From Amycolatopsis sacchari (GTDB taxonomy: Bacteria > Actinomycetota > Actinomycetes > Mycobacteriales > Pseudonocardiaceae), in NCBI RefSeq assembly GCF_900114035.1, contig NZ_FORP01000002.1, positions 372,001-436,000 of the forward strand: a stretch of 64,000 nt of DNA, in the 5' to 3' direction. The notes under the pieces are model-generated. The model did no database searches, was not told the origin of the DNA, and saw only the letters and a program-made list of their open reading frames with translations. The position numbers were made by a program, and so were the translations under genes. Positions 51,785 through 63,237 of this stretch are shown here, piece by piece (the first letter of the stretch is position 1; each line of letters opens with the position of its first letter).

Positions 51785-52598
51785 GTGCGCGAAGAAGACC
51801 TGACCACGAGATTGGTGGACCGCTTCGGCCCCCAGGGCGAGACCTGGCTCGCCGAGGTACCTGCGCTGGCCACGCGCCTGGCCTCGCGCTGGGGGCTCGA
51901 GCTCGGCGAACTGTTCGCGAGCGGGGCCTCTTCGCTGGTCATGCGCTGCCGTTGGCCCGACAGCACACCCGTGGTGCTGGCGGGTGCCTGCCGTACTGGC
52001 CACGGACGCGGAAGCCGGCGCGACGGTGCTGGAGGAGATCCTGCCTGGCACCGAGGCCGAAGACCTGCCCGCGGCCACTTTGCCTCCGCTGTGGGGAAAA
52101 CTGCTGGCCGCGCTCCACGCCGCGTCCCCGCCCGTCGGATGGCCTTGGCATCTGCGGGGTCGCTGTGAGGAGGCCTTCGACCGGATCGGCCCGAGGCTGT
52201 CCGACCCGGCCAACGCCGCAGGGATCAGCGAACCCGACTGGCAGCGGGCGATACGGCGCTGCGAGACGTTGCTGGACACCCAGGCCGCCAACGTGTTGCT
52301 GCACGGCAACCTGCACCTCGGCAACGTTCTGGACGCCGGGCCAGCGCGGGGCCTGGTCGCGATCGATCCGAAGGCGTGCGTAGGTGATCCGTGCTTCGAC
52401 GCCGTCGACTACGCCGTCGCCGGTGCCGGGCACGAAGGGGTCGAGGCCCGTTGTCAGCGGCCGGCGGCCGCGTGCGGGCTCGACGGCGGCAGATTGTTCG
52501 CCTGGAGCCGCGTCGTCGCGCCGATGGCCGCCATCGCGCACCTCACCTACGGCGGTCCGGAGCCGGTCATCGACGAACTACTCGCCCTCAGCAGGTGA
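51785..52598 (+). pseudogene. Aminoglycoside phosphotransferase (APH(6)/streptomycin-kinase type) gene with internal deletion and frameshift
   Basis: The first frame gives REEDLTTRLVDRFGPQGETW, GLELGELFASGASSLVMRCRWPDSTPVVL. It then shifts into sequence without meaning, while the next frame picks up VPAVLATDAEAGATVLEEILPG and runs to 52598 with VLLHGNLHLGNVLDAGPARGLVAIDPKACVGDP, the Brenner-type catalytic loop (HGNLHLGN) and metal-binding DPK. In intact relatives about 20-30 residues lie between the VVL and VPAVL blocks, with the nucleotide-binding Lys, so both a deletion and a frameshift have occurred near 51985. The start at 51785 is approximate. Active resistance is not expected. Confidence 0.8.
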
Positions 52599-52604
52599 AA
52601 CCCC

Positions 52605-53519
52605 TCAGGCCGTGCGCAGCGGCGTCGACGTCGACTCCGTCCACTTCCGCAGGCGGGGCGGCACGCGCTTCTCCAGCCCGTACGGCTCCAGGTGCGCGCT
52701 GAACACCTCGTCGAACGCGCGGCGGACCGTCTCCGTGTCCCACGTCTGCCGCTCCAGGATCGGCGCCTTCAGGTACGGCTGGCCGATGATGTGCAGCTGC
52801 GGCCCGTTGAACCGCACGAGCTGTCCCGTGATGCCCTCGGCGTCGTCGGAGAGCAGGAACAGCACCAGCGGCGCGATGCGCGAGGGCGTCCGGTCGGGCG
52901 GGCAGTTGCGCAGGGAGCGCTCCGACTTCCAGACCATCCGCGTGTGCGCGAGCGGGCACACGGCGTTCACCCGGATGCCCACCTCCTCCAGGTCCAGCGC
53001 CCACGAGTAGGTCAGCGAGGCCACCGCGCCCTTGCTCGCCGAGTACACGCCGAGCTTGCGCTGGCCCAGCGAGGCACCCGAGGAGATGTTGACGATCGAC
53101 CCGCCGGTGCCCTGCTCCACCATGGCCTTGATCGCCGCGATGCCGGTGTACATCACCCCCAGCACGTTCACCTCGACGAGCTCGCGCACCTGCTCGGGCT
53201 CCTCCTGCCACGGCAGCGCCTCGTAGTTCAGCGCCGCGTTGTTGACCAGCCCGTCGATCGAGCCGAACTCGTCCACGCACCGGCTGACCAGCGCCGCCGC
53301 CTCGGCCGGGTCGGTCACCGTGTGGCCGCTCGCGACGGCCTGCCCGCCGTGCTCCCTGATGTTCGCGGCCGTGCGCTCCGCCAGCTCCACGTCGATGTCG
53401 TTGGCGACGACCCTGGCGCCCGCCTGCGCCAGGTGCACGGCGAACGCCTCACCGAGCCCACGGCCGGCACCCGTCACCACGACTGCCCTGTCCTTCAGGC
53501 CGGCAAGCTCCATGTTCAT
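52605..53519 (-). CDS. Short-chain dehydrogenase/reductase (hydroxysteroid/acyl-type)
   Basis: A 304-residue SDR. It has AVVVTGAGRGLGEAFAVHLAQAGARVVANDID (cofactor site TGxxxGLG with Asp selecting NAD), NNAALNYEAL, IVNISSGASLG (Ser) and YSASKGAVASLTYSWALDLEE (Tyr and Lys). A 60-residue C-terminal extension follows (QTWDTETVRRAFDEVFSAHLEPYGLEKR). In the actinobacterial peroxisomal-HSD17B4-like group it would oxidise a hydroxyacyl or hydroxysteroid substrate. It is convergent with the broken kinase gene with a 6-bp gap. Confidence 0.92.
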   Translation of the reverse strand: MNMELAGLKDRAVVVTGAGRGLGEAFAVHLAQAGARVVANDIDVELAERTAANIREHGGQAVASGHTVTDPAEAAALVSRCVDEFGSIDGLVNNAALNYEALPWQEEPEQVRELVEVNVLGVMYTGIAAIKAMVEQGTGGSIVNISSGASLGQRKLGVYSASKGAVASLTYSWALDLEEVGIRVNAVCPLAHTRMVWKSERSLRNCPPDRTPSRIAPLVLFLLSDDAEGITGQLVRFNGPQLHIIGQPYLKAPILERQTWDTETVRRAFDEVFSAHLEPYGLEKRVPPRLRKWTESTSTPLRTA

Positions 53520-53922
53520 GTCCTTCACTCCCCACTGGCCAGCCCCGAACTCGAGCCGCGGGCGGCTCCTCTGACCCTGGTTCCAGTGTTCGCCGTCCGC
53601 ACGCGACCGCCACTCGGCCGACGACGAGCGGTCAGCAGACTGCGCCGAACGAGTGACCGCCGACCAGCGCCGCATACTCTCCGACCGGTCAGTGGGACGG
53701 TTCGCTGCGCCGTTCGTCGTAATCCGAAGGTTGGTGATTGCCTCCGCTCAGGCCCAAACCCGGACTACCGTCGTGCTGTGACTGTTCGCCTCCGGGCTGT
53801 AAGCGGCATACTGAGTGTTGTCTTTCCTGTCGCTTGGGTGAGTGCCCGGTTCCCGCGCCCCACGGCGGACGACAGAATGCGGAACGGCCAGGCGTTCACT
53901 CGATCAGGGGGGAGCTAGGGAG
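53520..53922. other. Intergenic region between divergent SDR and MFS genes
   Basis: About 400 bp with no supported gene. It contains the palindrome GACCGGTC (53683-53690) in the middle, possibly an operator for one side, and a GGGGGGAGCTAGGG purine-rich site just before the MFS start. No regulator gene lies here. Otherwise I see nothing. Confidence 0.45.
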
Positions 53923-55143
53923 ATGGTGAGGACGCAATCCCGTCCCGGCATGAGTTCCGCGCTGGCCAACGGCGAGTTCCGCACCGTCTGGCTGGCCGAG
54001 GCGCAGTCCACCATCGGTGACCAGCTCACGATCGTCGCACTGGCCCTGCTCGTCTACCACCGCACGGGTTCGGCGCTGCTGTCCGCGATCGCCTACGCGC
54101 TGACGTTCCTGCCCGCCCTCGCGGGCGGTCTCGGCCTCGCGCAGCTGGCCGACCGCTACCCGCGGCGGACGGTGCTCGCCGGTTCGGCCGCGGTGCAGGC
54201 GGTGCTGGTCGGCGTCATGGCGATCCCGGGGATGCCGCTGCTGCCGCTTTGCGTGCTGGTCGTGCTGGCCCGGCTGGCGGGCGCGCCGTCCAACGCGGCG
54301 CAGAACGCGCTGACGCGCGAGATCTTCACCGACGACGAGCTGTACCTGCGCAGCCAGGACATCCGCGGCATCACGACGAACACCGCGATGCTGCTCGGCC
54401 TGGCCTGCGGCGGGTTCCTCGTGACCGCGGCCGGCCCGTCGTGGGCGCTGGCGATCGACGCGGCCACCTTCGCCGTGAGCGCGTTCGCCCTGCACCGCTG
54501 GGTGCGGCCGCGCCCGGCGGCGGACGGCGGCGACGGCGCGTGGTTCGGCGCGATCCGCTGGGTGGCTGGGCAGCGACGGCTGCGCGTGCTGCTCGGCCTG
54601 TCGTGGCTCGTCGGCCTCGCGGTCATCCCCGAGGGCCTCGTCGCGCCGCTCGCGCGCGAGATCGGGGCTCCCGACCAGGCCGTCGGCTGGCTGCTCGCGG
54701 CGGACCCGCTCGGCTTCGTGGCCGGGGTCTTCGTCATGTCCCGCTTCGTCTCCGCGGAGGCGCGCAGGCGGGTGCTGGGGGTACTCGCCATCGTGCCGAC
54801 GGCGGTGCTGCTGGTGTTCTCCCTGCGGCCGGACCTCGTGCTGGCGCTGGTCGCGCTCGCGGCCGCGGGTGCGGCCGGCGCGTACATCGTCACCGTGGGC
54901 GCCTCGTTCATCACGTGGGTGCCCAACGAACTGCGGGGCGGCGCGGGGGGTGTGTACCGGACCGGACTGCGGGTGGCACAGGGCGTCGGCGTGGCCATCG
55001 GTGGTGTGCTCGCCGAATGGGCGGGCTCGGCCACCACCGCCATCACGATCGCGGGCGCGGCGGGGGTGCTGCTGGGCATTCCGCTCGCCGTGTCCTGGGC
55101 GCGGTTGGGTCCGGGTACGACGGAAGCAGCCGGCGCGTCATGA
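53923..55143 (+). CDS. MFS transporter (efflux type)
   Basis: A 406-residue permease with 12 predicted helices and an N-terminal cytoplasmic lead (ALANGEFRTVWLAEAQSTIGDQLTIVALALLVYHRTGSALL), the pattern of the EntS/MFS_3 exporters. It has the motif A-like loop LAQLADRYPRRTVLAGS, and FITWVPNELRGGAGGVYRTGLR before the last helices. The ATG at 53923 follows GGAGCTAGGGAG. Substrate unknown. It is convergent with the micro-ORF array, which starts to be encoded 23 bp beyond its stop on the opposite strand. Confidence 0.92.
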   Translation: MVRTQSRPGMSSALANGEFRTVWLAEAQSTIGDQLTIVALALLVYHRTGSALLSAIAYALTFLPALAGGLGLAQLADRYPRRTVLAGSAAVQAVLVGVMAIPGMPLLPLCVLVVLARLAGAPSNAAQNALTREIFTDDELYLRSQDIRGITTNTAMLLGLACGGFLVTAAGPSWALAIDAATFAVSAFALHRWVRPRPAADGGDGAWFGAIRWVAGQRRLRVLLGLSWLVGLAVIPEGLVAPLAREIGAPDQAVGWLLAADPLGFVAGVFVMSRFVSAEARRRVLGVLAIVPTAVLLVFSLRPDLVLALVALAAAGAAGAYIVTVGASFITWVPNELRGGAGGVYRTGLRVAQGVGVAIGGVLAEWAGSATTAITIAGAAGVLLGIPLAVSWARLGPGTTEAAGAS

Positions 55144-55165
55144 GCCGACCGGCGTCCGGCGGGCA

Positions 55166-55186
55166 TCAGAAGTCACGGTTCGACAC
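55166..55186 (-). CDS. Micro-ORF unit 1 (last): M-S-N-R-D-F
   Basis: GTG-TCG-AAC-CGT-GAC-TTC-TGA, preceded by GGAGGTGA (55200-55193) at a 6-nt gap. It ends 22 bp from the stop codon of the convergent MFS gene. Confidence 0.6.
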   Translation of the reverse strand: MSNRDF

Positions 55187-55243
55187 GGGGGGTCACCTCC
55201 GGTTTTCGAGCGAGAAACAAACGCGAAGCGAGCAGGCAGCGGA

Positions 55244-55264
55244 TCAGAAGTCGCGGTTCGACAC
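55244..55264 (-). CDS. Micro-ORF unit 2: M-S-N-R-D-F
   Basis: GTG-TCG-AAC-CGC-GAC-TTC-TGA, preceded by GAGGTG (55276-55271) at a 6-nt gap. The Arg codon is CGC where the other units have CGT. Confidence 0.6.
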   Translation of the reverse strand: MSNRDF

Positions 55265-55323
55265 GAAGAACACCTCTCCCACGGCAGCAGCGGCGAAAGA
55301 ATCAGGATTTTCCGGGGCACGGA

Positions 55324-55344
55324 TCAGAAGTCACGGTTCGCCAC
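55324..55344 (-). CDS. Micro-ORF unit 3: M-A-N-R-D-F
   Basis: GTG-GCG-AAC-CGT-GAC-TTC-TGA, preceded by GGAGGTG (55358-55352) at a 7-nt gap. The second residue is Ala where the other units have Ser, the only amino acid difference in the array. Confidence 0.6.
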   Translation of the reverse strand: MANRDF

Positions 55345-55405
55345 GGCAAGCCACCTCCACACAACCGAGCAACACACACAAACGAGCGCGCAGAACTCCC
55401 ACACC

Positions 55406-55426
55406 TCAGAAGTCACGGTTAGACAA
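55406..55426 (-). CDS. Micro-ORF unit 4 (first transcribed): M-S-N-R-D-F
   Basis: TTG-TCT-AAC-CGT-GAC-TTC-TGA, preceded by GGAGGTG (55439-55433) at a 6-nt gap. It is the only unit with a TTG start and the codon TCT for Ser. Nearest to the candidate promoter, so it would be translated first on a minus-strand transcript. Confidence 0.6.
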   Translation of the reverse strand: MSNRDF

Positions 55427-55518
55427 GAAGAACACCTCCAATCGGTGCTCGCACGCCGAGCAGAGACGTACCACTGTGGACGAGGTCGCCGTCCGCCCGG
55501 TGCGTCGTATGCGGTGGG

Positions 55519-55524
55519 ATGATA
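55519..55524 (-). promoter_or_regulatory. Possible -10 element (TATCAT) for the micro-ORF array
   Basis: TATCAT on the minus strand fits TANNNT and is about 80 bp upstream of the first Shine-Dalgarno sequence of the array. A -35 box is not convincing. The divergent diguanylate cyclase gene starts about 90 bp to the other side. Confidence 0.3.
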
Positions 55525-55610
55525 CCTGTTGAAGAGAAAGCACCCGGCGTCTCTCCGGGCACAGCAAAGTTACCCCGCCAGTGTGCGGTCCGTCGAGAGA
55601 AGGTGATCCA

Positions 55611-57047
55611 GTGCCCCCACCCCCCGCCCGGTCCGGATCACCGACACTGCCCGGGCAAACGGCCGCGACGCCGGACCCCCAGGGGAACGGGGCGGCGGTG
55701 GCCGGCGGATCCCCGGCCGGGCACCCCGCCCCGGACACGTCGAGTGATTCCCCGAGCACTCGCCGCTCTTTCAAACCACAATATTGGGCGCTGTGGCGGC
55801 GTCCGAAAGCATTCATCGCATTCCTCCTCGTAGCGGAACTCGCCGCCGTCGCGTGGTTCGTCCTCGTTTTCGTGGACATGACGGCGCCGACCCGTCTGGA
55901 TTTGCTCCGGTTCGCGATTCTGACGGCCGGCGCGACGGTCCACATCCAGATGACCCGGCGACAGGAGGAACGCCGCAGAAATCGCGTGCGAACGGTCCTG
56001 ATCGACCTCACCGCGGTATGGGTCTTTCCCGCCGCGATTATTCTTCCGGCACCGCTGACCATCGGCTTGGTACTGCTGATTCGCGTGCAGCACTGGTTCG
56101 TCGCACGCCGTCCCGCGCACAACTTCGTGTTCTCCTCGATCACGCACATGCTCGCCGCGACGGTGGCGCACCGCGTATTCGTGGCGCTGGGCGGACAACA
56201 GTGGATGTCGCTCACCGCGCTGTCCTCGCTCGGCGAATTCGCGAAACTGCTCTTGGTCGGGCTCGTCTACGAGGCCGTGCAGATCCTGTACGTCGGCAGC
56301 ATTCTGAGTCTGTCCGGGAAGTCGAAACCGACGATCCGCAGCGTGCTCGGCAGCAAGGCGGACAACCTGCTGGAGGCCATCACGATCGGCCTCGGCGCGG
56401 TCACCGCGATCCTGCTGGTGATCCTGCCGCCGACGGTGGCGATCATGGCGGTGGTGACGGTCGTGTTCAACCGCCTCGCGGAGCTCGACCAGCTGCAGGA
56501 CGACGTCCGGACGGACCCGAAGACGCAGGTCTACAACATGCGAGGGTGGACGGAGTCGGCCGAGCGGGCCCTCGCGCGGGCGGCGAAGTCGGACGACAAC
56601 CTCGGCATCCTGATGATCGACCTCGACCACTTCAAGTGGATCAACGACACCTACGGCCACCCGGCGGGCGACGACGTGCTGCGCAACCTCGCCCAGCTGT
56701 TGGACGAGGTCACGCGGCCCGCCGACGTGGTGGGCCGCTTCGGCGGCGAGGAGTTCCTCGTGCTGCTGCCCGACGCGGACCAGGCGGCGGCGACCGGCGC
56801 GGCGGAGCGGATCCGGTCGTCGGTGGCGCGGCTGCGGATCGCGACGACGGACAAGCGCGGTGACCAGATCACCGTGTCCGACCGCACGGCGTCGATCGGT
56901 GTCGCGGTCTTCCCCGACCACGGCGACTCGCTGGAGAAGCTCATGCACGCCGCCGACGCGGCCGTGTACGAGGCGAAGGAGGGCGGCCGGAACCAGGTGC
57001 GCCTCGCCGAGCACCGCGCTCATCACGGAGCGACAACCACTCACTAG
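55611..57047 (+). CDS. Membrane-bound diguanylate cyclase (GGDEF)
   Basis: About 478 residues from the GTG at 55611 (GAGAAGGTGA upstream). The Pro/Ser-rich N-terminus of about 60 residues is followed by six to eight predicted membrane helices (about 70-300) and a GGDEF domain at about 310-475: MIDLDHFKWINDTYGHPAGDDVL, VGRFGGEEFLVLLPDA with the active GGEEF, and ASIGVAVFP. The inhibitory I-site RxxD is present five residues before GGEEF (RPADVVGRF). So it should make c-di-GMP with product feedback control. No EAL domain is attached. It diverges from the micro-ORF array. Confidence 0.94.
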   Translation: MPPPPARSGSPTLPGQTAATPDPQGNGAAVAGGSPAGHPAPDTSSDSPSTRRSFKPQYWALWRRPKAFIAFLLVAELAAVAWFVLVFVDMTAPTRLDLLRFAILTAGATVHIQMTRRQEERRRNRVRTVLIDLTAVWVFPAAIILPAPLTIGLVLLIRVQHWFVARRPAHNFVFSSITHMLAATVAHRVFVALGGQQWMSLTALSSLGEFAKLLLVGLVYEAVQILYVGSILSLSGKSKPTIRSVLGSKADNLLEAITIGLGAVTAILLVILPPTVAIMAVVTVVFNRLAELDQLQDDVRTDPKTQVYNMRGWTESAERALARAAKSDDNLGILMIDLDHFKWINDTYGHPAGDDVLRNLAQLLDEVTRPADVVGRFGGEEFLVLLPDADQAAATGAAERIRSSVARLRIATTDKRGDQITVSDRTASIGVAVFPDHGDSLEKLMHAADAAVYEAKEGGRNQVRLAEHRAHHGATTTH

Positions 57048-57113
57048 GGTGAGGCACTCATCCGGGGACCACCCGGATGTGCGAAACCCACGGACCCTGC
57101 CACCCTGGAGTTC

Positions 57114-59246
57114 ATGATCGCCCCAGCCGAGACCCCGCGCCTGCGCAGGCGCCTGTCGAACTCGGCCTGGCTGCTGGTGCTGACGCTGGCCCTGCTGGGC
57201 TTCGGCTTCGTCGCGTCCCGCCCCTCCGCGCCCCCCGACCACGGCCCGCCCACCGGCGGCGCGGCCGCCGCGCAGCGCGCCATCGAAGCCCTCACCCATC
57301 CGGGTGGGGAGCCGACGGCGCTGAGCCTGCTGCCCGCGGACTTCACCCGCGTCACGGGCGTCGTCCCGGGTGCCCTGCCCGCGCGCGACGGCACGGTGCG
57401 CGCGGTCCACGTCGACGGCGGCTGCTCGACGCCGTGGGGCGACGACAACACCAAGTGGGACTACGCCGTGCCGTGCAAGGCCCACGACCTCGGCTACGAC
57501 CTGCTGCGTTACGCCGACAAGGTGGGCCAGCCGCTCGCCCCGGCCGTGCGGGAGTCGCTCGACGCGCGCCTGTCGGCGGACATGCACAACATGTGCCACG
57601 TCAACCCGATGGACTCGCCTAGGACGTGCCAGCTGGTCGCCTCGCTGTACTCCGCCGGGCTCGTGGTGAACTCCTGGCACCAGCGCTGGGGGCCGCCGGT
57701 GGGTGACCCGATCGGGCCGATGCTCGCCGGTGTCGCCGTCATCGGGTGCCTGCTGGTCCTGCGGCTGCGGGGCTGGCTGTCCGCTCGCCACACGCGCCCG
57801 GCGCGCCCCGCGCCCGCCCGCGGCCCGGCTCCGGCGTCGAGCTGGGTGACGCTCGGCGTGACGAGCCTGGTGCTCATGATCGCCGGGGAGTCGGTGATCC
57901 AGCTGGCCCGGTGGGCGGGCGTGGCCGAGTCGTGGCTGTGGCCGTTCACGTGGCTCGCCCAGCTGGCTCCCGTGTTCTTCTTCGCCGGCGGCCGCGCCAA
58001 CGCCGCGGGCTGGCACGCGGTGCTCGACGGCGGGGGCGGGTACCGGCAGTACCTCGCGCACCGCGCGAGCTGGCTGCTGCGGCCCGCGTTGATCTTCGTC
58101 GTGGTGACGCTCGTCGTGCCGCTCGCGCTCGAGCTGCTCGGCATCCCGGACAGCACGAACGCGACGATCGTGCGCGTCGCGCTGCACCCGTTGTGGCTGC
58201 TGGCGGTGTACCTGCTGACGATGGTGGCCGCCCCGGTGATGCTCGCGCTGCACCGGCGGGCGCCCAGGGCGGGCGCGCTCGCGCTGCTGGCGTTCGTCGT
58301 GCTGGCCGAGCTGGGCGCCGGCTGGACCGGGTCGAAGATCCCGCACTACCTCGCCGCGTTCGGGCTCGCGCTGCTCGCCCAGCAGGTCGCGTTCGGCAGG
58401 CTGTTCGCGCGGAACCGGTGGTGGCTGCTCGGCGGCGCGCTGGCGGGACTCGCCGGGCTGGTGCTGCTCACCACCGTCGGCGGCACGGCGCCGAACCTGC
58501 TCGGCACGCCCGGCGCGCCGCCCGCGCTCGCCGCGCCCGCGCTGCCGGTGCTGCTGCTGGGCGCGGTGCAGCTGGGCGTGCTGGGCCTGTCCGCCCGTCC
58601 GCTGAACCGGCTCACCGCGCAGCCCGTGGTCTCCGCTGTGGTCCGCCTCGCCCTGCGCGCTCCGATGAGCCTGTACCTCGGGTTCCTCGCGGCCGTGTTG
58701 CTGCTGGTGACGGTGGTGTACCTGCCGCCAAGCCCGGCTGCCGCGCTCGCGTGGCTCACCGGCCCGCGCACGCTCATGGCGCTGGGGCTGCTCGCCGTGC
58801 CCGCGTTGATCGTGTTCTGGTGGTTCGAGCGGCACGGTGACGGGTATGTCCCGGTTCCCCTGTCAGCGCCGACGGGGTGGCTGGCGCACGCCGCCACCGC
58901 ACTGGGCACGGGTTTCGCCACGATCGGCCTGTTCGGGTTCGCGCTGACGCAGTTCGGCGGGGACACCGGCGCCACGCTCCTCGGCCTGCCGCTGGACCCG
59001 ATCCAGAACCTGATCGAACTGCTGCTCGGGGTGTTCCTGCTGCACGCCGTGCGCACCGGGGCGAGTGCGACAGCGAGCACGTGGGTCGTCACGGCCTTGG
59101 CGTGCGTGCCGCCGCTGCTGGACGCGGCCGACGGCGTCGAGGCGTCACCCGTTCCGGTGCTGGTCCACGGGCTCACCGGACTGTTCGCCCTGGGGGCTGC
59201 CGCGAGCACCCTCCTGTCGGCCAAGGCGGTGGTGGAGAACACGTAA
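57114..59246 (+). CDS. Phospholipase A2-like domain fused to a membrane acyltransferase and a DUF4383-like module
   Basis: A 710-residue protein starting at ATG. Residues about 18-36 form a membrane anchor or signal. Residues about 60-185 form a bacterial phospholipase A2 domain, with CSTPWGDDNTKWDYAVPCKAHDLGYDLL holding the His-Asp pair H124-D125 and four cysteines (C104, C121 and two later). After a second helix come about 10 membrane helices of the acyltransferase-3 type (WPFTWLAQLAPVFFFAGGRANAAGW, YLAHRASWLLRPALIF). The last 120 residues resemble a DUF4383 module (LPLDPIQNLIELLLGVFLLHAV). The combination suggests release and re-esterification of lipid acyl chains at the membrane outer face; function is inference. 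Confidence 0.85.
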   Translation: MIAPAETPRLRRRLSNSAWLLVLTLALLGFGFVASRPSAPPDHGPPTGGAAAAQRAIEALTHPGGEPTALSLLPADFTRVTGVVPGALPARDGTVRAVHVDGGCSTPWGDDNTKWDYAVPCKAHDLGYDLLRYADKVGQPLAPAVRESLDARLSADMHNMCHVNPMDSPRTCQLVASLYSAGLVVNSWHQRWGPPVGDPIGPMLAGVAVIGCLLVLRLRGWLSARHTRPARPAPARGPAPASSWVTLGVTSLVLMIAGESVIQLARWAGVAESWLWPFTWLAQLAPVFFFAGGRANAAGWHAVLDGGGGYRQYLAHRASWLLRPALIFVVVTLVVPLALELLGIPDSTNATIVRVALHPLWLLAVYLLTMVAAPVMLALHRRAPRAGALALLAFVVLAELGAGWTGSKIPHYLAAFGLALLAQQVAFGRLFARNRWWLLGGALAGLAGLVLLTTVGGTAPNLLGTPGAPPALAAPALPVLLLGAVQLGVLGLSARPLNRLTAQPVVSAVVRLALRAPMSLYLGFLAAVLLLVTVVYLPPSPAAALAWLTGPRTLMALGLLAVPALIVFWWFERHGDGYVPVPLSAPTGWLAHAATALGTGFATIGLFGFALTQFGGDTGATLLGLPLDPIQNLIELLLGVFLLHAVRTGASATASTWVVTALACVPPLLDAADGVEASPVPVLVHGLTGLFALGAAASTLLSAKAVVENT

Positions 59247-59368
59247 CCGGGTGTGCTGAACCACATTCGCCGATCAATGTGCGACGCTACGGCAACCGGG
59301 TGACCGGGTGGCGCGTCCACCCGATCGGGCACTCGTGTGACTGAGAGCCGGGGAAGGGAGACGAGGGC

Positions 59369-60994
59369 GTGGAGTATCCGCCGCGGAACGAGCGTGGGGC
59401 ACCTCGTCGTCCCGTGCCGCGGCAGGGCCGTCCGGCCGACGCCCGCTACGTCGGCCCCGCCCGCCGCGGTGCACCACCGCCCCGTGGCGACCGCCGCCCC
59501 GCACCGCCCAGCCCCCGCCGCCGTCCCGCTCCGCCGCCTCCGCCACGCCGCCGCCGGTACGGCGCCAAGATCGCCGTCGCGGTGGTGTCGCTGCTGGTGA
59601 TGAGCCTGACCGGCTACGCCTGGGCCGCCATGCAGGGCCTGGTCAGCGGGCTGACGACGGCGGACGTGATCAGCGGCGACCAGCCGGCCGACGGCGCCCG
59701 CGACATCCTCCTGGTCGGCATGGACAGCCGCACCGACGCGCAGGGCAACCCGCTGTCCGAGCAGCTGCTCGCGGAGCTGCGGGCCGGGGTGTCCGACGGT
59801 GTCGAGAACACCGACACGCTGATCATGGTGCACATCCCCAACGACGGCAGCAAGGCCGTCGCGATCTCGCTGCCGCGCGACTCCTACGTCAGCATCCCGG
59901 GCTTCGGCACCCACAAGATCAACTCCGCCTACGCGCGGGGCAAGGCGGCCGAACGCAAGAAGCTGCAGGACTCCGGCGACACCGATGCCAAGGACATCGA
60001 GGTCAAGAGCGCGCAGGCCGGCGCGAAGACGCTGATCGCGACCGTCGAGCAGCTGACCGGCTCCTCGATCGACAACTACGCCTCGATCAACCTGCTCGGC
60101 TTCTCCGACATCACCAAGGCCATCGGCGGCGTGGACGTGTGCCTCAAGGACAACGTCAACGACCCCTACTCGGGCGCGAAGTTCACCAAGGGCAAGCACA
60201 CGATCTCCGGTGTCGAGGCGCTGGAGTTCGTGCGCCAGCGGCACGGGCTCCCCCGCGGCGACCTCGACCGGGTGGTGCGCCAGCAGGTGTTCATGGCCGG
60301 GATGGCGCGCAAGGTGCTGTCGGCGGGCACGCTCGCCGACCCCGGCAAGCTCAGCTCCCTCACCGACGCGATCAAGAAGTCCGTGGTGCTCAACCAGGGC
60401 TGGGACATCCTGGGCTTCGCCCAGCAGATGAAGGGCCTGACGGGCGGGCAGCTGCAGTTCCAGACCATCCCGGTGGTCAACGTGGACTACCCGACGCCCG
60501 AGGACGGCCAGGCCATCAAGGTCGACCCGTCGGCGGTGCGGAAGTTCGTGCAGGGCCTGACGGGCCCGCCGGCCGGCGCCCAGTCCACCCCGCCGGGACC
60601 GGACAACTCGGCGACCACTGTGGACGTCCACAACGGAACTCCCAAGTCCGGTCTCGCCGCGACCGTCTCGCAGGCGCTGACCGGGAAGGGCTTCAAGGCG
60701 GGCGAGACCGGCAACGCCAGCGCCCGCGTCAAGGCCACCACCATCCGCTACCCGGCAGGCGCCAAGGACGCCGCCCAGTCCGTCTCGGACGCACTGGGGG
60801 TCACCGCGGCGCTGCAGGAGGACGACAGCGTCCAGACCGGACACGTCCTGGTCGTGGTGGGCAGCGACTACTCGGCCGCGTCGTCGGCGCAGAACGTCCA
60901 GCAGTCCTCCGGCGCCCCGTCCACCGGTGCCGCCGCGCCCGCGGACGATGACGACAAACCGATCACCGCCGACGGGATCACTTGCGTCAACTGA
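59369..60994 (+). CDS. LCP-family cell-wall ligase with C-terminal LytR_C domain
   Basis: A 541-residue protein from GTG. It has a basic Pro/Arg-rich cytoplasmic tail (1-65), one membrane helix (about 67-90), the LCP domain (about 105-370: DILLVGMDSRTDAQG, AISLPRDSYVSIPGFGTHKINSAYA, FVRQRHGLPRGDLDRVVRQQVFMAGM) and a LytR_C domain (about 405-485, VDVHNGTPKSGLAATVSQALTGKGF). This is the architecture of the main wall-polymer ligases of actinomycetes, about 200 residues longer than the LCP protein at 10668. It probably attaches arabinogalactan or other anionic glycan to peptidoglycan. Confidence 0.95.
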   Translation: MEYPPRNERGAPRRPVPRQGRPADARYVGPARRGAPPPRGDRRPAPPSPRRRPAPPPPPRRRRYGAKIAVAVVSLLVMSLTGYAWAAMQGLVSGLTTADVISGDQPADGARDILLVGMDSRTDAQGNPLSEQLLAELRAGVSDGVENTDTLIMVHIPNDGSKAVAISLPRDSYVSIPGFGTHKINSAYARGKAAERKKLQDSGDTDAKDIEVKSAQAGAKTLIATVEQLTGSSIDNYASINLLGFSDITKAIGGVDVCLKDNVNDPYSGAKFTKGKHTISGVEALEFVRQRHGLPRGDLDRVVRQQVFMAGMARKVLSAGTLADPGKLSSLTDAIKKSVVLNQGWDILGFAQQMKGLTGGQLQFQTIPVVNVDYPTPEDGQAIKVDPSAVRKFVQGLTGPPAGAQSTPPGPDNSATTVDVHNGTPKSGLAATVSQALTGKGFKAGETGNASARVKATTIRYPAGAKDAAQSVSDALGVTAALQEDDSVQTGHVLVVVGSDYSAASSAQNVQQSSGAPSTGAAAPADDDDKPITADGITCVN

Positions 60995-61105
60995 CGTAGG
61001 CCGTTCAGCCTCCTCCTGTTAGCCCGTTCGGCCTAATCACAAGATCAAGTTGAACGATCCGCGCGAACTCGCGTAAGAGCAGCGGTCTCAGCGACTTACA
61101 TACGC

Positions 61106-61681
61106 GTGGACACCGCTGAAGTACGACGGCACGCGCCGCCGCAGGGGTATGACGCGAGGCAGGGCAGGGGACCAGGAGTGCACATCGACAGTGACCTCTA
61201 CCAGCGAGTTCTGGGGGAGGAACTCAGGAAGCTGCGGCGCAGGCGGGGCTGGACGCGCAAGGAGCTGAACCAGCACCTGCAGAGCGACATCTCGCTGCAG
61301 ACGCTCGCGACCTACGAGCTGGGCACGCGGCAGTGCTCGGTGGTCAGACTCGTGGAGCTGTGCCTCGCCATGGACGAGCTGCCCCAGGACCTGCTGGCCC
61401 GCGTGCACCGGCGCGTCTTCACGGACGAGCCCGGCAAGGTGCGGCTCGACCTGCCGCGCATCGTCGCCGACCACCGGCCCGAGCTGCTGCCGCTGCGGCG
61501 CTGGGCGGAGGACCGCCTGCGTCAGCAGGGCGCGCCCCGCGAGGTGCAACTGGACCGGCCCGCCGTGGACCGGATGGCCGAGCTGTGCGGGCTGAGCACG
61601 GCGGAACTACTGGCCCTGCTGCACGACCTCGCCGAACCCGTGCCGGACGGGCTGGATCCGGGGGGCGGCGGAAGGCTCTGA
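61106..61681 (+). CDS. XRE-family HTH transcriptional regulator
   Basis: A protein of up to 191 residues; GTG at 61106 is used, but ATG at 61148 or GTG at 61178 are possible starts. The HTH is at about 35-90 (GEELRKLRRRRGWTRKELNQHLQSDISLQTLATYELGTRQCSVVRLVELCLAM). The remainder is helical, with KVRLDLPRIVADHRPELLPLRRWAEDRL and AVDRMAELCGLSTAELLALLHDLAEP. I recall close relatives as conserved single-copy regulators in Pseudonocardiaceae and mycobacteria, but no target is established. It stands alone after the LCP gene. Confidence 0.85.
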   Translation: MDTAEVRRHAPPQGYDARQGRGPGVHIDSDLYQRVLGEELRKLRRRRGWTRKELNQHLQSDISLQTLATYELGTRQCSVVRLVELCLAMDELPQDLLARVHRRVFTDEPGKVRLDLPRIVADHRPELLPLRRWAEDRLRQQGAPREVQLDRPAVDRMAELCGLSTAELLALLHDLAEPVPDGLDPGGGGRL

Positions 61682-61732
61682 CACCGACCAGCCGCCCCGC
61701 CGGGAAATCAGCAAGATGCGGACCGCCAGGTG

Positions 61733-63217
61733 CTACTTGCCACCTGCGGTGCCGATTAGTTCGAAGTCGGCGGGGCGGACCCGGCGGGTCGCGAGCCAGT
61801 ACCGCCAGGTGAAGCCGGGCCACAGCGTCCGGTTGACCCCCTGGGCGTCGAGGTACCAGCTCTTGCACCCGCCCTGCGTCCAGACCCCCTTGGCCAGTTT
61901 GCGCTGCATCTGCGCGTTGAACCGGTCCTGCACCTCCGGCCGGGTCGCGAGCGCCTCCGCACGGGAACCCTCGACGAGGTCGATCGCCTCGGCGATGTAG
62001 TGGGCCTGGGACTCGACCATGAAGACCACCGAGTTGTGGCCCAGACCGGTGTTGGGGCCGAGCAGGAAGAACAGGTTCGGGAAGCCGGCCACGGTGATGC
62101 CCAGGTGCGTGCGCATGCCCTCGGCGGCCCATTCCTTCGCCAGGTTCCGGCCGCCTTCGCCGACGATCTCCAGGTTCTCGAACGCGTCGATCACGTGGAA
62201 GCCGGTGCCGAAGATGATGGCGTCGACCTCGTGCTCGCGGCCCGCGGCGTCCACGATGCTGTGCTCACGCACCTCGGTCACCCCGTCGGTGACCACGTCG
62301 ACGTTGTCCCGCGCCAGCGCCGGGTAGTAGTCGTTCGACATGAGCACGCGCTTGCAGCCCATGACGTAGTCCGGCGTCACGCGGCGGCGCAGCTCCGGGT
62401 CGGCGATGGACCGCGCGATGTGCCGCTTCGCCAGCTGCTGCGCGGCCTTCATCAGGGTGAGGCTGCCGTTGAAGCCCAGCACCCGCGCCTCCAGCGACCA
62501 GTACAGGGCGTCGCGGTAGAACGTCTGCAGCGCGGGCACCTTGCGGAACGCCTTGCGCGCCCAGTCCGGCACGCTGTGGTCGGGCTTGGGCAGCACCCAC
62601 GGCGGCGTGCGCTGGAAGACCGTCAGCTCTGCGACCTGCGGCGCGATCTGCGGGATGAACTGGATGGCGCTCGCGCCGGTGCCCACCACCGCGACGCGCT
62701 TGCCGCGCAGGTCGAAGTCGTGGTTCCACTCCGCGGAGTGGAAGCTCTCGCCGCGGAAGTTCGCCATGCCGGGCAGGTCCGGGATCTGCGGCAGGTGCAG
62801 GGCACCGACGCCGTTGACCAGGTAGCGCCCCACGAACTCGTCGCCGCCCCTCGTGGCGACGTGCCAGCGGTGCTCGCCGGCGTCCCAGCGCGCGCCGGTC
62901 ATCTCCTGGCCGAAGCGGATGTAGGAGTACAGGTCGTACTTCTTGGCTATGCCGCGCAGGTAGTCCCAGATCTCCGGCTGCGGCGAGAACGTCCTCGTCC
63001 AGTCCGGGTTCTGCTCGAAGGAGTACGAGTACATGTGCGACTGCACGTCACACGCGCAGCCCGGGTACGTGTTGTCGCGCCACGTGCCGCCGACCTCGGT
63101 CGCCTTCTCCAGGATCACGAAGTCCCGGCGGCCCTTCTTCAGCAGCTCGATGGCCATGCCGAGTCCGGAGAATCCCGTGCCGACGATGACCACGCCCGCC
63201 TCGGTGCGCTCGCCCAT
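61733..63217 (-). CDS. Baeyer-Villiger-type flavin monooxygenase
   Basis: A 494-residue monooxygenase starting at the ATG at 63217 after GAGGTGGA. It has VVIVGTGFSGLGMAIELLKKG (FAD), the fingerprint FRGESFHSAEW, KRVAVVGTGASAIQFIPQ (NADPH), and the C-terminal LFFLLGPNTGLGHNSVVFMVESQ. It is homologous along its length to the monooxygenase at 22732. It diverges from a TetR regulator with an inverted-repeat region between them, so it is probably repressed by that protein and induced by its ketone-type substrate. Confidence 0.94.
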   Translation of the reverse strand: MGERTEAGVVIVGTGFSGLGMAIELLKKGRRDFVILEKATEVGGTWRDNTYPGCACDVQSHMYSYSFEQNPDWTRTFSPQPEIWDYLRGIAKKYDLYSYIRFGQEMTGARWDAGEHRWHVATRGGDEFVGRYLVNGVGALHLPQIPDLPGMANFRGESFHSAEWNHDFDLRGKRVAVVGTGASAIQFIPQIAPQVAELTVFQRTPPWVLPKPDHSVPDWARKAFRKVPALQTFYRDALYWSLEARVLGFNGSLTLMKAAQQLAKRHIARSIADPELRRRVTPDYVMGCKRVLMSNDYYPALARDNVDVVTDGVTEVREHSIVDAAGREHEVDAIIFGTGFHVIDAFENLEIVGEGGRNLAKEWAAEGMRTHLGITVAGFPNLFFLLGPNTGLGHNSVVFMVESQAHYIAEAIDLVEGSRAEALATRPEVQDRFNAQMQRKLAKGVWTQGGCKSWYLDAQGVNRTLWPGFTWRYWLATRRVRPADFELIGTAGGK

Positions 63218-63237
63218 CCGTCCACCTCGCACTTCCC

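Follow-up and report, generated by a model that had tools for sequence, protein, structure and literature searches.

Leaderless communication peptides (SIP/LCP, with RopB receptors, in Firmicutes) are encoded by ultrasmall open reading frames (ORFs) that specify the mature, leaderless peptide beside the receptor gene and carry species-specific codes, as far as the accessible part of the source goes (PMC10518010). The biarylitides, which are minimal ribosomally synthesized and post-translationally modified peptides (RiPPs), derive from bytA, an 18-bp gene for a pentapeptide that is multicopy in some strains (PMC13417212, sections available). The signals reported for actinobacteria are mainly gamma-butyrolactones and other small molecules in the available part of a 2016 review (PMC4748050). 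Here we analysed a stretch of 64,000 nucleotides from Amycolatopsis sacchari (family Pseudonocardiaceae; contig NZ_FORP01000002.1, positions 372,001 to 436,000), hereafter the window. On its minus strand lies an array of four mini-ORFs, each preceded by a Shine-Dalgarno sequence (SD) and each encoding the hexapeptide M-(S/A)-N-R-D-F. We found this array to belong to a larger system, apparently undescribed, in which tandem mini-ORFs are linked to genes for membrane diguanylate cyclases (DGCs), the enzymes that make cyclic di-GMP (c-di-GMP).

By analogy, the array system would work most like the leaderless communication peptides. Its mini-ORFs are likewise ultrasmall and leaderless (21 bp in the window and 18-24 bp elsewhere, with the last four codons under selection), and presumably give the mature form directly. 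The receptors differ: leaderless communication peptides are sensed by a cytosolic Rgg/RRNPP regulator, whereas the receptor proposed here is the membrane DGC, and none of the 8 window proteins scanned with Pfam (51984-63232) matched an Rgg/RRNPP receptor. Moreover, the Firmicutes peptides are mostly 8-10 residues long and hydrophobic in the part of the literature available, while those described here have 5-7 residues, are polar or charged, and occur in actinobacteria in tandem arrays of up to 23 copies, usually with a major facilitator superfamily (MFS) gene in the locus. The biarylitides share very short, multicopy peptide genes with this system. However, no cross-linking P450 was among the 8 scanned proteins of the window locus, the neighbour here is a DGC, and neither MSNRDF in the window nor MSRDW and others elsewhere have the biarylitide pattern of an aromatic residue at both the third and the fifth position. 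A literature search, whose coverage left out most subscription papers, found no description of tandem hexapeptide minigene arrays with diguanylate cyclases. Nor did it turn up any account of multicopy minigenes in which one residue is uniform across the array.

An earlier reading made from the sequence alone had claimed four SD-led M-(S/A)-N-R-D-F-TGA units on the minus strand, and all four were recovered where it had put them:

55406..55439, minus strand: unit 1, SD GGAGGTG at 55439-55433, 6 nt, start TTG at 55426; TTG-TCT-AAC-CGT-GAC-TTC-TGA (MSNRDF), stop ending at 55406
55324..55358, minus strand: unit 2, SD GGAGGTG at 55358-55352, 7 nt, start GTG at 55344; GTG-GCG-AAC-CGT-GAC-TTC-TGA (MANRDF), stop ending at 55324
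55244..55276, minus strand: unit 3, SD GAGGTG at 55276-55271, 6 nt, start GTG at 55264; GTG-TCG-AAC-CGC-GAC-TTC-TGA (MSNRDF), stop ending at 55244
55166..55200, minus strand: unit 4, SD GGAGGTG at 55200-55194, 7 nt, start GTG at 55186; GTG-TCG-AAC-CGT-GAC-TTC-TGA (MSNRDF), stop ending at 55166

Across the array (55166-55439) the stops are 82, 80 and 78 bp apart, and the SD-to-start gaps measure 6, 7, 6 and 7 nt. The four-unit set is beyond chance expectation. The pattern AACCGNGACTTCTGA, with up to 2 mismatches allowed, matched the window four times, every match being exact, against 0.32 expected, and none of 100 dinucleotide shuffles of the window reached four matches. In its own genome the exact pattern occurs at these four places only.

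Considering codon variation within arrays, translation of the mini-ORFs is very likely under selection. The comparison was based on 97 clusters found without a peptide pattern (378 units), which were collapsed by upstream-DNA similarity to 53 arrays (266 units). Within these arrays the last four codons gave 114 synonymous versus 2 non-synonymous distinct codon pairs, while a random change of one base would alter the amino acid 63-96% of the time, according to the codon concerned. Non-synonymous differences were detectable, because the clustering let one of the last four residues differ. The second codon gave 35 synonymous versus 75 non-synonymous pairs and is therefore unconstrained. The fourth residue from the end was uniform in 53/53 arrays, and its codons varied in 23 of them; the stops were 248 TGA, 15 TAA and 3 TAG. 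For the 34 collapsed arrays that no pattern had selected, the counts were 59 synonymous and 0 non-synonymous, and the same residue was uniform in all 34. The constrained part of the peptide is thus its last four residues, Asn-Arg-Asp-Phe in the window. A separate set of 260 units from 71 loci, for which the search pattern fixed R, D and TGA, had a uniform third residue in 57/57 arrays of at least two units, with codons varying in 36. A generic scan within the spans of 48 of these arrays added 11 mini-ORFs: six encoded the same peptide with TAA, four were exact but unmarked unit repeats, and one was unrelated (MNRS). A first codon test had given 134 synonymous pairs versus 1, but its units were found with a pattern fixing R and D, only its third-residue part (77 to 0) was free of this bias, and 19 of its 24 mixed-serine arrays came from one clade of genus g16 (g, G and L numbers are our labels for genera, genomes and loci). 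For these reasons the pattern-free collapsed recount is preferred.

Selection on a translated short peptide, rather than on DNA or RNA, had been inferred from the window alone, and the wider comparison bears this out: the frame is kept, the core codons vary nearly only synonymously, and the three stops interchange. If the repeats were instead protein-binding sites on DNA or an RNA sponge, the ORF reading would be incidental; a tandem layout with units mostly 57-83 bp apart beside a divergent gene would suit such an element. Almost purely synonymous core variation and exchanged stops speak against it, as does the mixing of AGY and TCN serine codons in 7 of 13 collapsed serine arrays (1 of 6 among those not pattern-picked). 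Furthermore, the RNA of the window array was no more structured than shuffles (z +1.17; 87/100 folded equally well), and Rfam gave nothing above threshold, one sub-threshold animal miRNA match being taken as chance. We consider a DNA or RNA element highly improbable. The claim that the spacers had diverged completely stands in part. Over 721 unit pairs, mostly from long arrays, mean within-array identity was 39% for 15-nt spacer pieces, compared with 91% for the 15 nt that end the ORF; on the other hand, TTTGTTT-like runs recur in many spacers (read by eye), and a TATCAT element is kept before unit 1.

The absence of such arrays from related genomes had been named as grounds for rejecting the idea; tandem arrays do occur in relatives, with the reading frame kept. 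The exact NRDF pattern was found in tandem in 8 of the 19 searched Amycolatopsis genomes (own included), with 4 to 6 units. It also occurred on eight named Amycolatopsis contigs, each of which had the units in tandem when read with a wider pattern. The SD-plus-NRDF pattern occurred in 41/390 genomes and 4/46 genera of the family, and in a class sample it was confined to the own genome (1/394). When the third residue was left free and the peptide could end in F, W or Y (L and C codons passed as well), 170/390 family genomes matched, and tandem sets were found in many genera. Single matches were left out of the array counts, because a reversed control also gave scattered matches to the loose pattern in some genomes and single matches are possibly chance. 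At least two relaxed matches were present in 18 of the 19 Amycolatopsis genomes, and the nineteenth (G018) has four MRDREA units. Outside the family, the strict RD-[FWY] pattern was absent from all 393 other genomes, while with the loose one a few percent of the class-sample genomes had one match each. Two candidates with close or overlapping loose matches, G616 and G441, held no ORF arrays or one overlapping match.

The array in the window is flanked by two genes:

55605..57047, plus strand: membrane DGC, divergent from the array (Pfam PF00990, E 2.3e-46; predicted structures; relatives), its start codon at 55605 picked from an SD
53842..55143, plus strand: MFS transporter that converges on the array (domain matches to MFS_1/MFS_3, with TIGR00900 under its cut-off); the true start may lie downstream of 53842

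The linkage of mini-ORF arrays to the DGC was established by a reverse search, in which DGC relatives were taken by protein and the DNA upstream of them was scanned for similar mini-ORFs at loci with at least 300 nt upstream. Loci with less, L093 (a duplicate of L088), L209 (left without a DGC match once cut) and the catalytic-domain-only loci L264-L275 and L279 were left out before counting. At least two similar mini-ORFs lay upstream of the DGC in the divergent direction at 97/175 loci, and in the other direction at 1/175. Without the 38 loci picked by array pattern, the counts were 70/137 and 0/137, or 35 and 0 when at least three units were required, and 875 mononucleotide shuffles produced none. 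Arrays accompanied 28/29 best DGC matches in genus g16, 18/19 g16 loci selected for the absence of the F/W/Y pattern, 10/30 other DGC loci (27 family genomes), 8/38 paralogous DGCs and 5/17 DGCs in other bacterial families; these group counts are not independent, because the g16 loci are close relatives. In the own genome 1 of 4 GGDEF matches has an array, the other three matching the catalytic domain only. The system thus extends beyond Pseudonocardiaceae, with tandem mini-ORFs at DGCs in other families.

Both neighbours first read in the window, an MFS exporter and a GGDEF protein, proved to be conserved beside the array. At all 18 loci fetched from genera g1, g16 and g8 the array is flanked by an MFS gene on one side and a divergent GGDEF gene on the other. 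An MFS gene lies within 2.5 kb in 61/71 array loci, and on the DGC strand within this distance in 60/71; it also flanks the array on the DGC strand in four array loci outside the family (L251, L252, L255 and L258), and is found at 20/44 loci without a tandem array. The exceptions are varied. In g70 loci L193-L196 and L198 the MFS gene is more than 1 kb away and on the array strand, while in L186, L190, L192, L197 and L199, from other genera, the DGC is present with no MFS match in the fetched DNA. In the g27 loci L080 and L081 only one MRNRDF unit precedes the MFS gene, in the same orientation, and 12 kb of DNA held no GGDEF match; a second element similar to this unit, at C1:6407376 in G044 (L023), carries GTA where the start codon would be. 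Of all arrays that of L198 is the longest, at 23 units (18 TGA and 5 TAA stops). The g70 loci L193-L196, L198 and L225 have very long MRSRDW/MSRDW arrays, with 18 units in L193, 11 in L194, 16 in L195, 7 in L196 and 12 in L225; the period is often 60-66 bp and the SDs are mostly of AGGAG type. Pentapeptide MSRDW and hexapeptide MRSRDW units are mixed within one array.

Peptide cores differ between DGC types. Besides NRDF we found SRDF, DRDF, GRDF, GRDY, ARDF, SRDW, DRDW, NRDL, NRDG, DREA, DRAW, DREY, NRDS, DKIW and NRAW, and the reverse search added SRDN, DRGN, TREH, SWDW, EKIW and NREY. Outside the family the peptides were MRDNTWT (x8), MRANSWD (x2), MNSNSW (x7, TAA stops), MRHTSWS (x2) and MRGWKWS (x2). 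Between loci the C-terminal residue can be F, W, Y, L, G, A, S, N, H or M, and heptapeptides end in W-T, W-S or W-D. Among the related g16 loci L078, L200-L208 and L217 W, L, G, A or S can replace F as the last residue, and L078 has NRDF and NRDW units side by side, like a transition. In 13 genomes with more than one peptide-bearing DGC, a list compiled by hand that includes single ORFs and is not exhaustive, no core was shared in 22 pairs.

In several places of a tree of 83 DGCs the peptide type matches the DGC clade. The four MR[D/E]KIW DGCs, which come from three genera, make up a single clade (100/100), and the DGCs with MRDNTWT, MRDNNWT, MRANSWD, MRDNNWAA, MRDSNW and MRDVNW, from three bacterial families, group together with weak support (96/55). 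With catalytic-domain distance held, peptide distance correlated with sensor distance (partial r 0.159, 8/999 permutations, 81 loci), and with MFS distance held too the value was 0.375 (0/499 permutations, 69 loci). Peptide and MFS distances showed no correlation in the expected sense (r -0.288, 499/499 permutations). Peptide similarity thus tracks the sensor domain of the DGC and not the MFS; these correlations are supportive and not proof, because the distances share one phylogeny.

The DGC consists of a multi-helix membrane sensor (approximately residues 50-298 of the modelled 478-residue form) and a GGDEF domain. Residues G378, G379 and E381 and the RxxD (I-site) residues R369 and D372 were invariant or above 90% in 57 sequences, and full-length fold searches returned GGDEF structures in the top 50. 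Judged by these catalytic and I-site residues, the window protein is a predicted diguanylate cyclase. Its modelled sensor resembles the S-components of energy-coupling factor (ECF) transporters (RibU, BioY, ThiT and PanT) at 9-15% identity, and a PDB profile search for this relationship by sequence gave nothing convincing; the S-component-like fold is a lead only. Such folds usually bind their ligand from outside. ECF S-components bind vitamins, whereas this sensor is fused to GGDEF and its proposed ligand is a peptide. MASE-type membrane DGCs are alike in the DGC itself but differ in the sensor, since that of the window belongs to no confident Pfam family (DUF1600 at E 0.002, below the cut-off) and had no match to MASE9 (PF20972) at E 0.01, a threshold passed by 5/57 sensors of relatives (best 1.5e-8). 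In the accessible main text of a 2022 census of c-di-GMP stimuli, 'peptide' occurs once, where it names a ligand of PBP-clan domains in general (PMC8846402).

Based on these results, we propose that the locus is a three-part signalling cassette of array, membrane DGC and MFS. A dedicated transcript would carry the tandem minigene copies, each translated separately from a strong SD into a leaderless peptide of 5-7 residues (fMet-Ser/Ala-Asn-Arg-Asp-Phe in the window), and more copies would give a higher peptide dose. The peptide would be the cognate ligand of the divergently encoded DGC and alter c-di-GMP synthesis. The flanking MFS is most likely the peptide exporter, in which case the peptide would be a cell-to-cell or self-sensing signal, and a separate peptide for each DGC type would allow several insulated channels per genome. 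Transcription, export, binding and the direction of the effect on the cyclase are inferred. On balance, we lean toward a model in which a short peptide, translated directly and probably carried out of the cell by the MFS, is the cognate DGC ligand. The agreement between peptide type and DGC clade is imperfect: NRDS occurs in two separate DGC clades, and NRDF, DRDF and GRDF in more than one place of the tree.

Export is the step on which an intracellular alternative differs. The peptide could act as a dose-dependent modulator on the cytosolic face of the DGC, or on a partner, with the MFS as a bystander; the DGC is present even at array loci whose fetched DNA holds no MFS, MFS distance is unrelated to the peptide, and 5-7 residues leave no room for a leader or cleavage site. 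Set against this are the MFS gene on the DGC strand in 60/71 array loci and in the four outside the family, the closer tracking of peptide distance with the membrane sensor than with the catalytic domain, and the outside binding usual for S-component folds. We regard purely intracellular action as rather unlikely.

Of the three roles first suggested for the window array, a directly translated signalling peptide fits best; a ribosome-occupying minigene or an RNA decoy would leave unexplained that one residue, the fourth from the end, is constant throughout an array yet differs between DGC types. At the ribosome, a nascent x-R-D-aromatic peptide could stall or delay termination and make the array a ribosome sink, a source of drop-off or a regulator of the transcript. 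Constraint confined to the last four residues and the stop, the mixing of MSRDW and MRSRDW, and terminator-like hairpins near and between the first window units would agree with this. But the next gene, the MFS, is usually on the opposite strand, the C-terminal residue and the stop codon vary, and arrest gives no reason why peptide identity should track the DGC sensor, so we hold this mechanism to be improbable. An amino-acid attenuation leader was also considered and disfavoured, given the strand of the MFS gene in 60/71 loci and the interchange of F, W and Y. The units might alternatively be multicopy ultrashort RiPP precursors with a modifying enzyme elsewhere, the MFS exporting the product and the DGC regulating. 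Biarylitide precursors of 5 residues reach 6 copies in a Lysinibacillus strain (PMC13417212, part available), and aromatic residues are common near the C-terminus of the array peptides; against this, cores with no aromatic residue exist (NRDS, DREA, DRGN and NRDG) and the 8 window proteins scanned included no P450. This origin too has little probability in our view.

Returning to the exported ligand, the wider picture would be a family of directly translated 5-7-residue signals across several bacterial families, with tandem minigenes of up to 23 copies, dedicated MFS export, S-component-like DGC sensors and several insulated peptide-to-c-di-GMP channels per genome; we hold this full version tentatively, at slightly under an even chance. 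Many soil-type actinobacteria carry such arrays beside a c-di-GMP-making membrane enzyme, and the pair has the look of an unrecognised peptide signal and its sensor. Annotation misses the minigenes because they are only 18-24 bp long. If true, this would be a peptide communication system in a phylum with mainly small-molecule signals reported, and one class of DGC membrane sensors would gain a ligand, linked to c-di-GMP, which controls development in actinobacteria. The prediction is open to direct test by synthetic peptides.

Candidate regulatory features on the array strand are as follows:

55519..55524, minus strand: TATCAT, inferred candidate -10 element of a dedicated array promoter (alignment of loci)
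55450-55430, 55404-55388 and 55562-55540, minus strand: terminator-like hairpins (hairpin scan)

The TATCAT element upstream of unit 1 and the sequence AGGTATCATCCCACCGC were identical in 9/9 aligned loci of the first alignment set; against a promoter there, a sigma-70 consensus scan found none. For terminator-like hairpins on this strand, 0.6 were expected and three were found. The first of them (GAGCACC..GGTGTTC) lies over the SD of unit 1 and could mask it, and its sequence is almost unchanged across the genus. In L182, L183 and L191 degenerate additional units precede the first counted unit, for example TTGTCTGGCCGTAACTTCTGA in L182, which suggests decaying copies at the promoter-proximal end.

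The Pfam scan of the 8 window proteins identified GGDEF, MFS, SDR, APH, LytR-CpsA-Psr, an acyltransferase/PLA2-like protein, an HTH_31 protein (61106-61681) and FMO. The MFS proteins start with an NREFR-like motif resembling NRDF. Mimicry of the MFS N-terminus by the peptide was rejected at the readable loci (the N-terminus lies outside many of the short ones): there was no covariation, EF being kept in the MFS where the peptide ends in W and the preceding residue being independent of the peptide, and the likeness is probably a coincidence. The protein encoded at 57114-59246 is a long membrane protein that weakly matches acyltransferase 3 (28.7 versus a cut-off of 31) and prokaryotic phospholipase A2 (29.7 versus 29.4), and look-alikes of it follow the DGC at several other loci (by eye). 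A short-chain dehydrogenase gene (52605-53675) adjoins the MFS gene, and look-alike translations, again by eye, lie near the array in many Pseudonocardiaceae loci, including some without the MFS.
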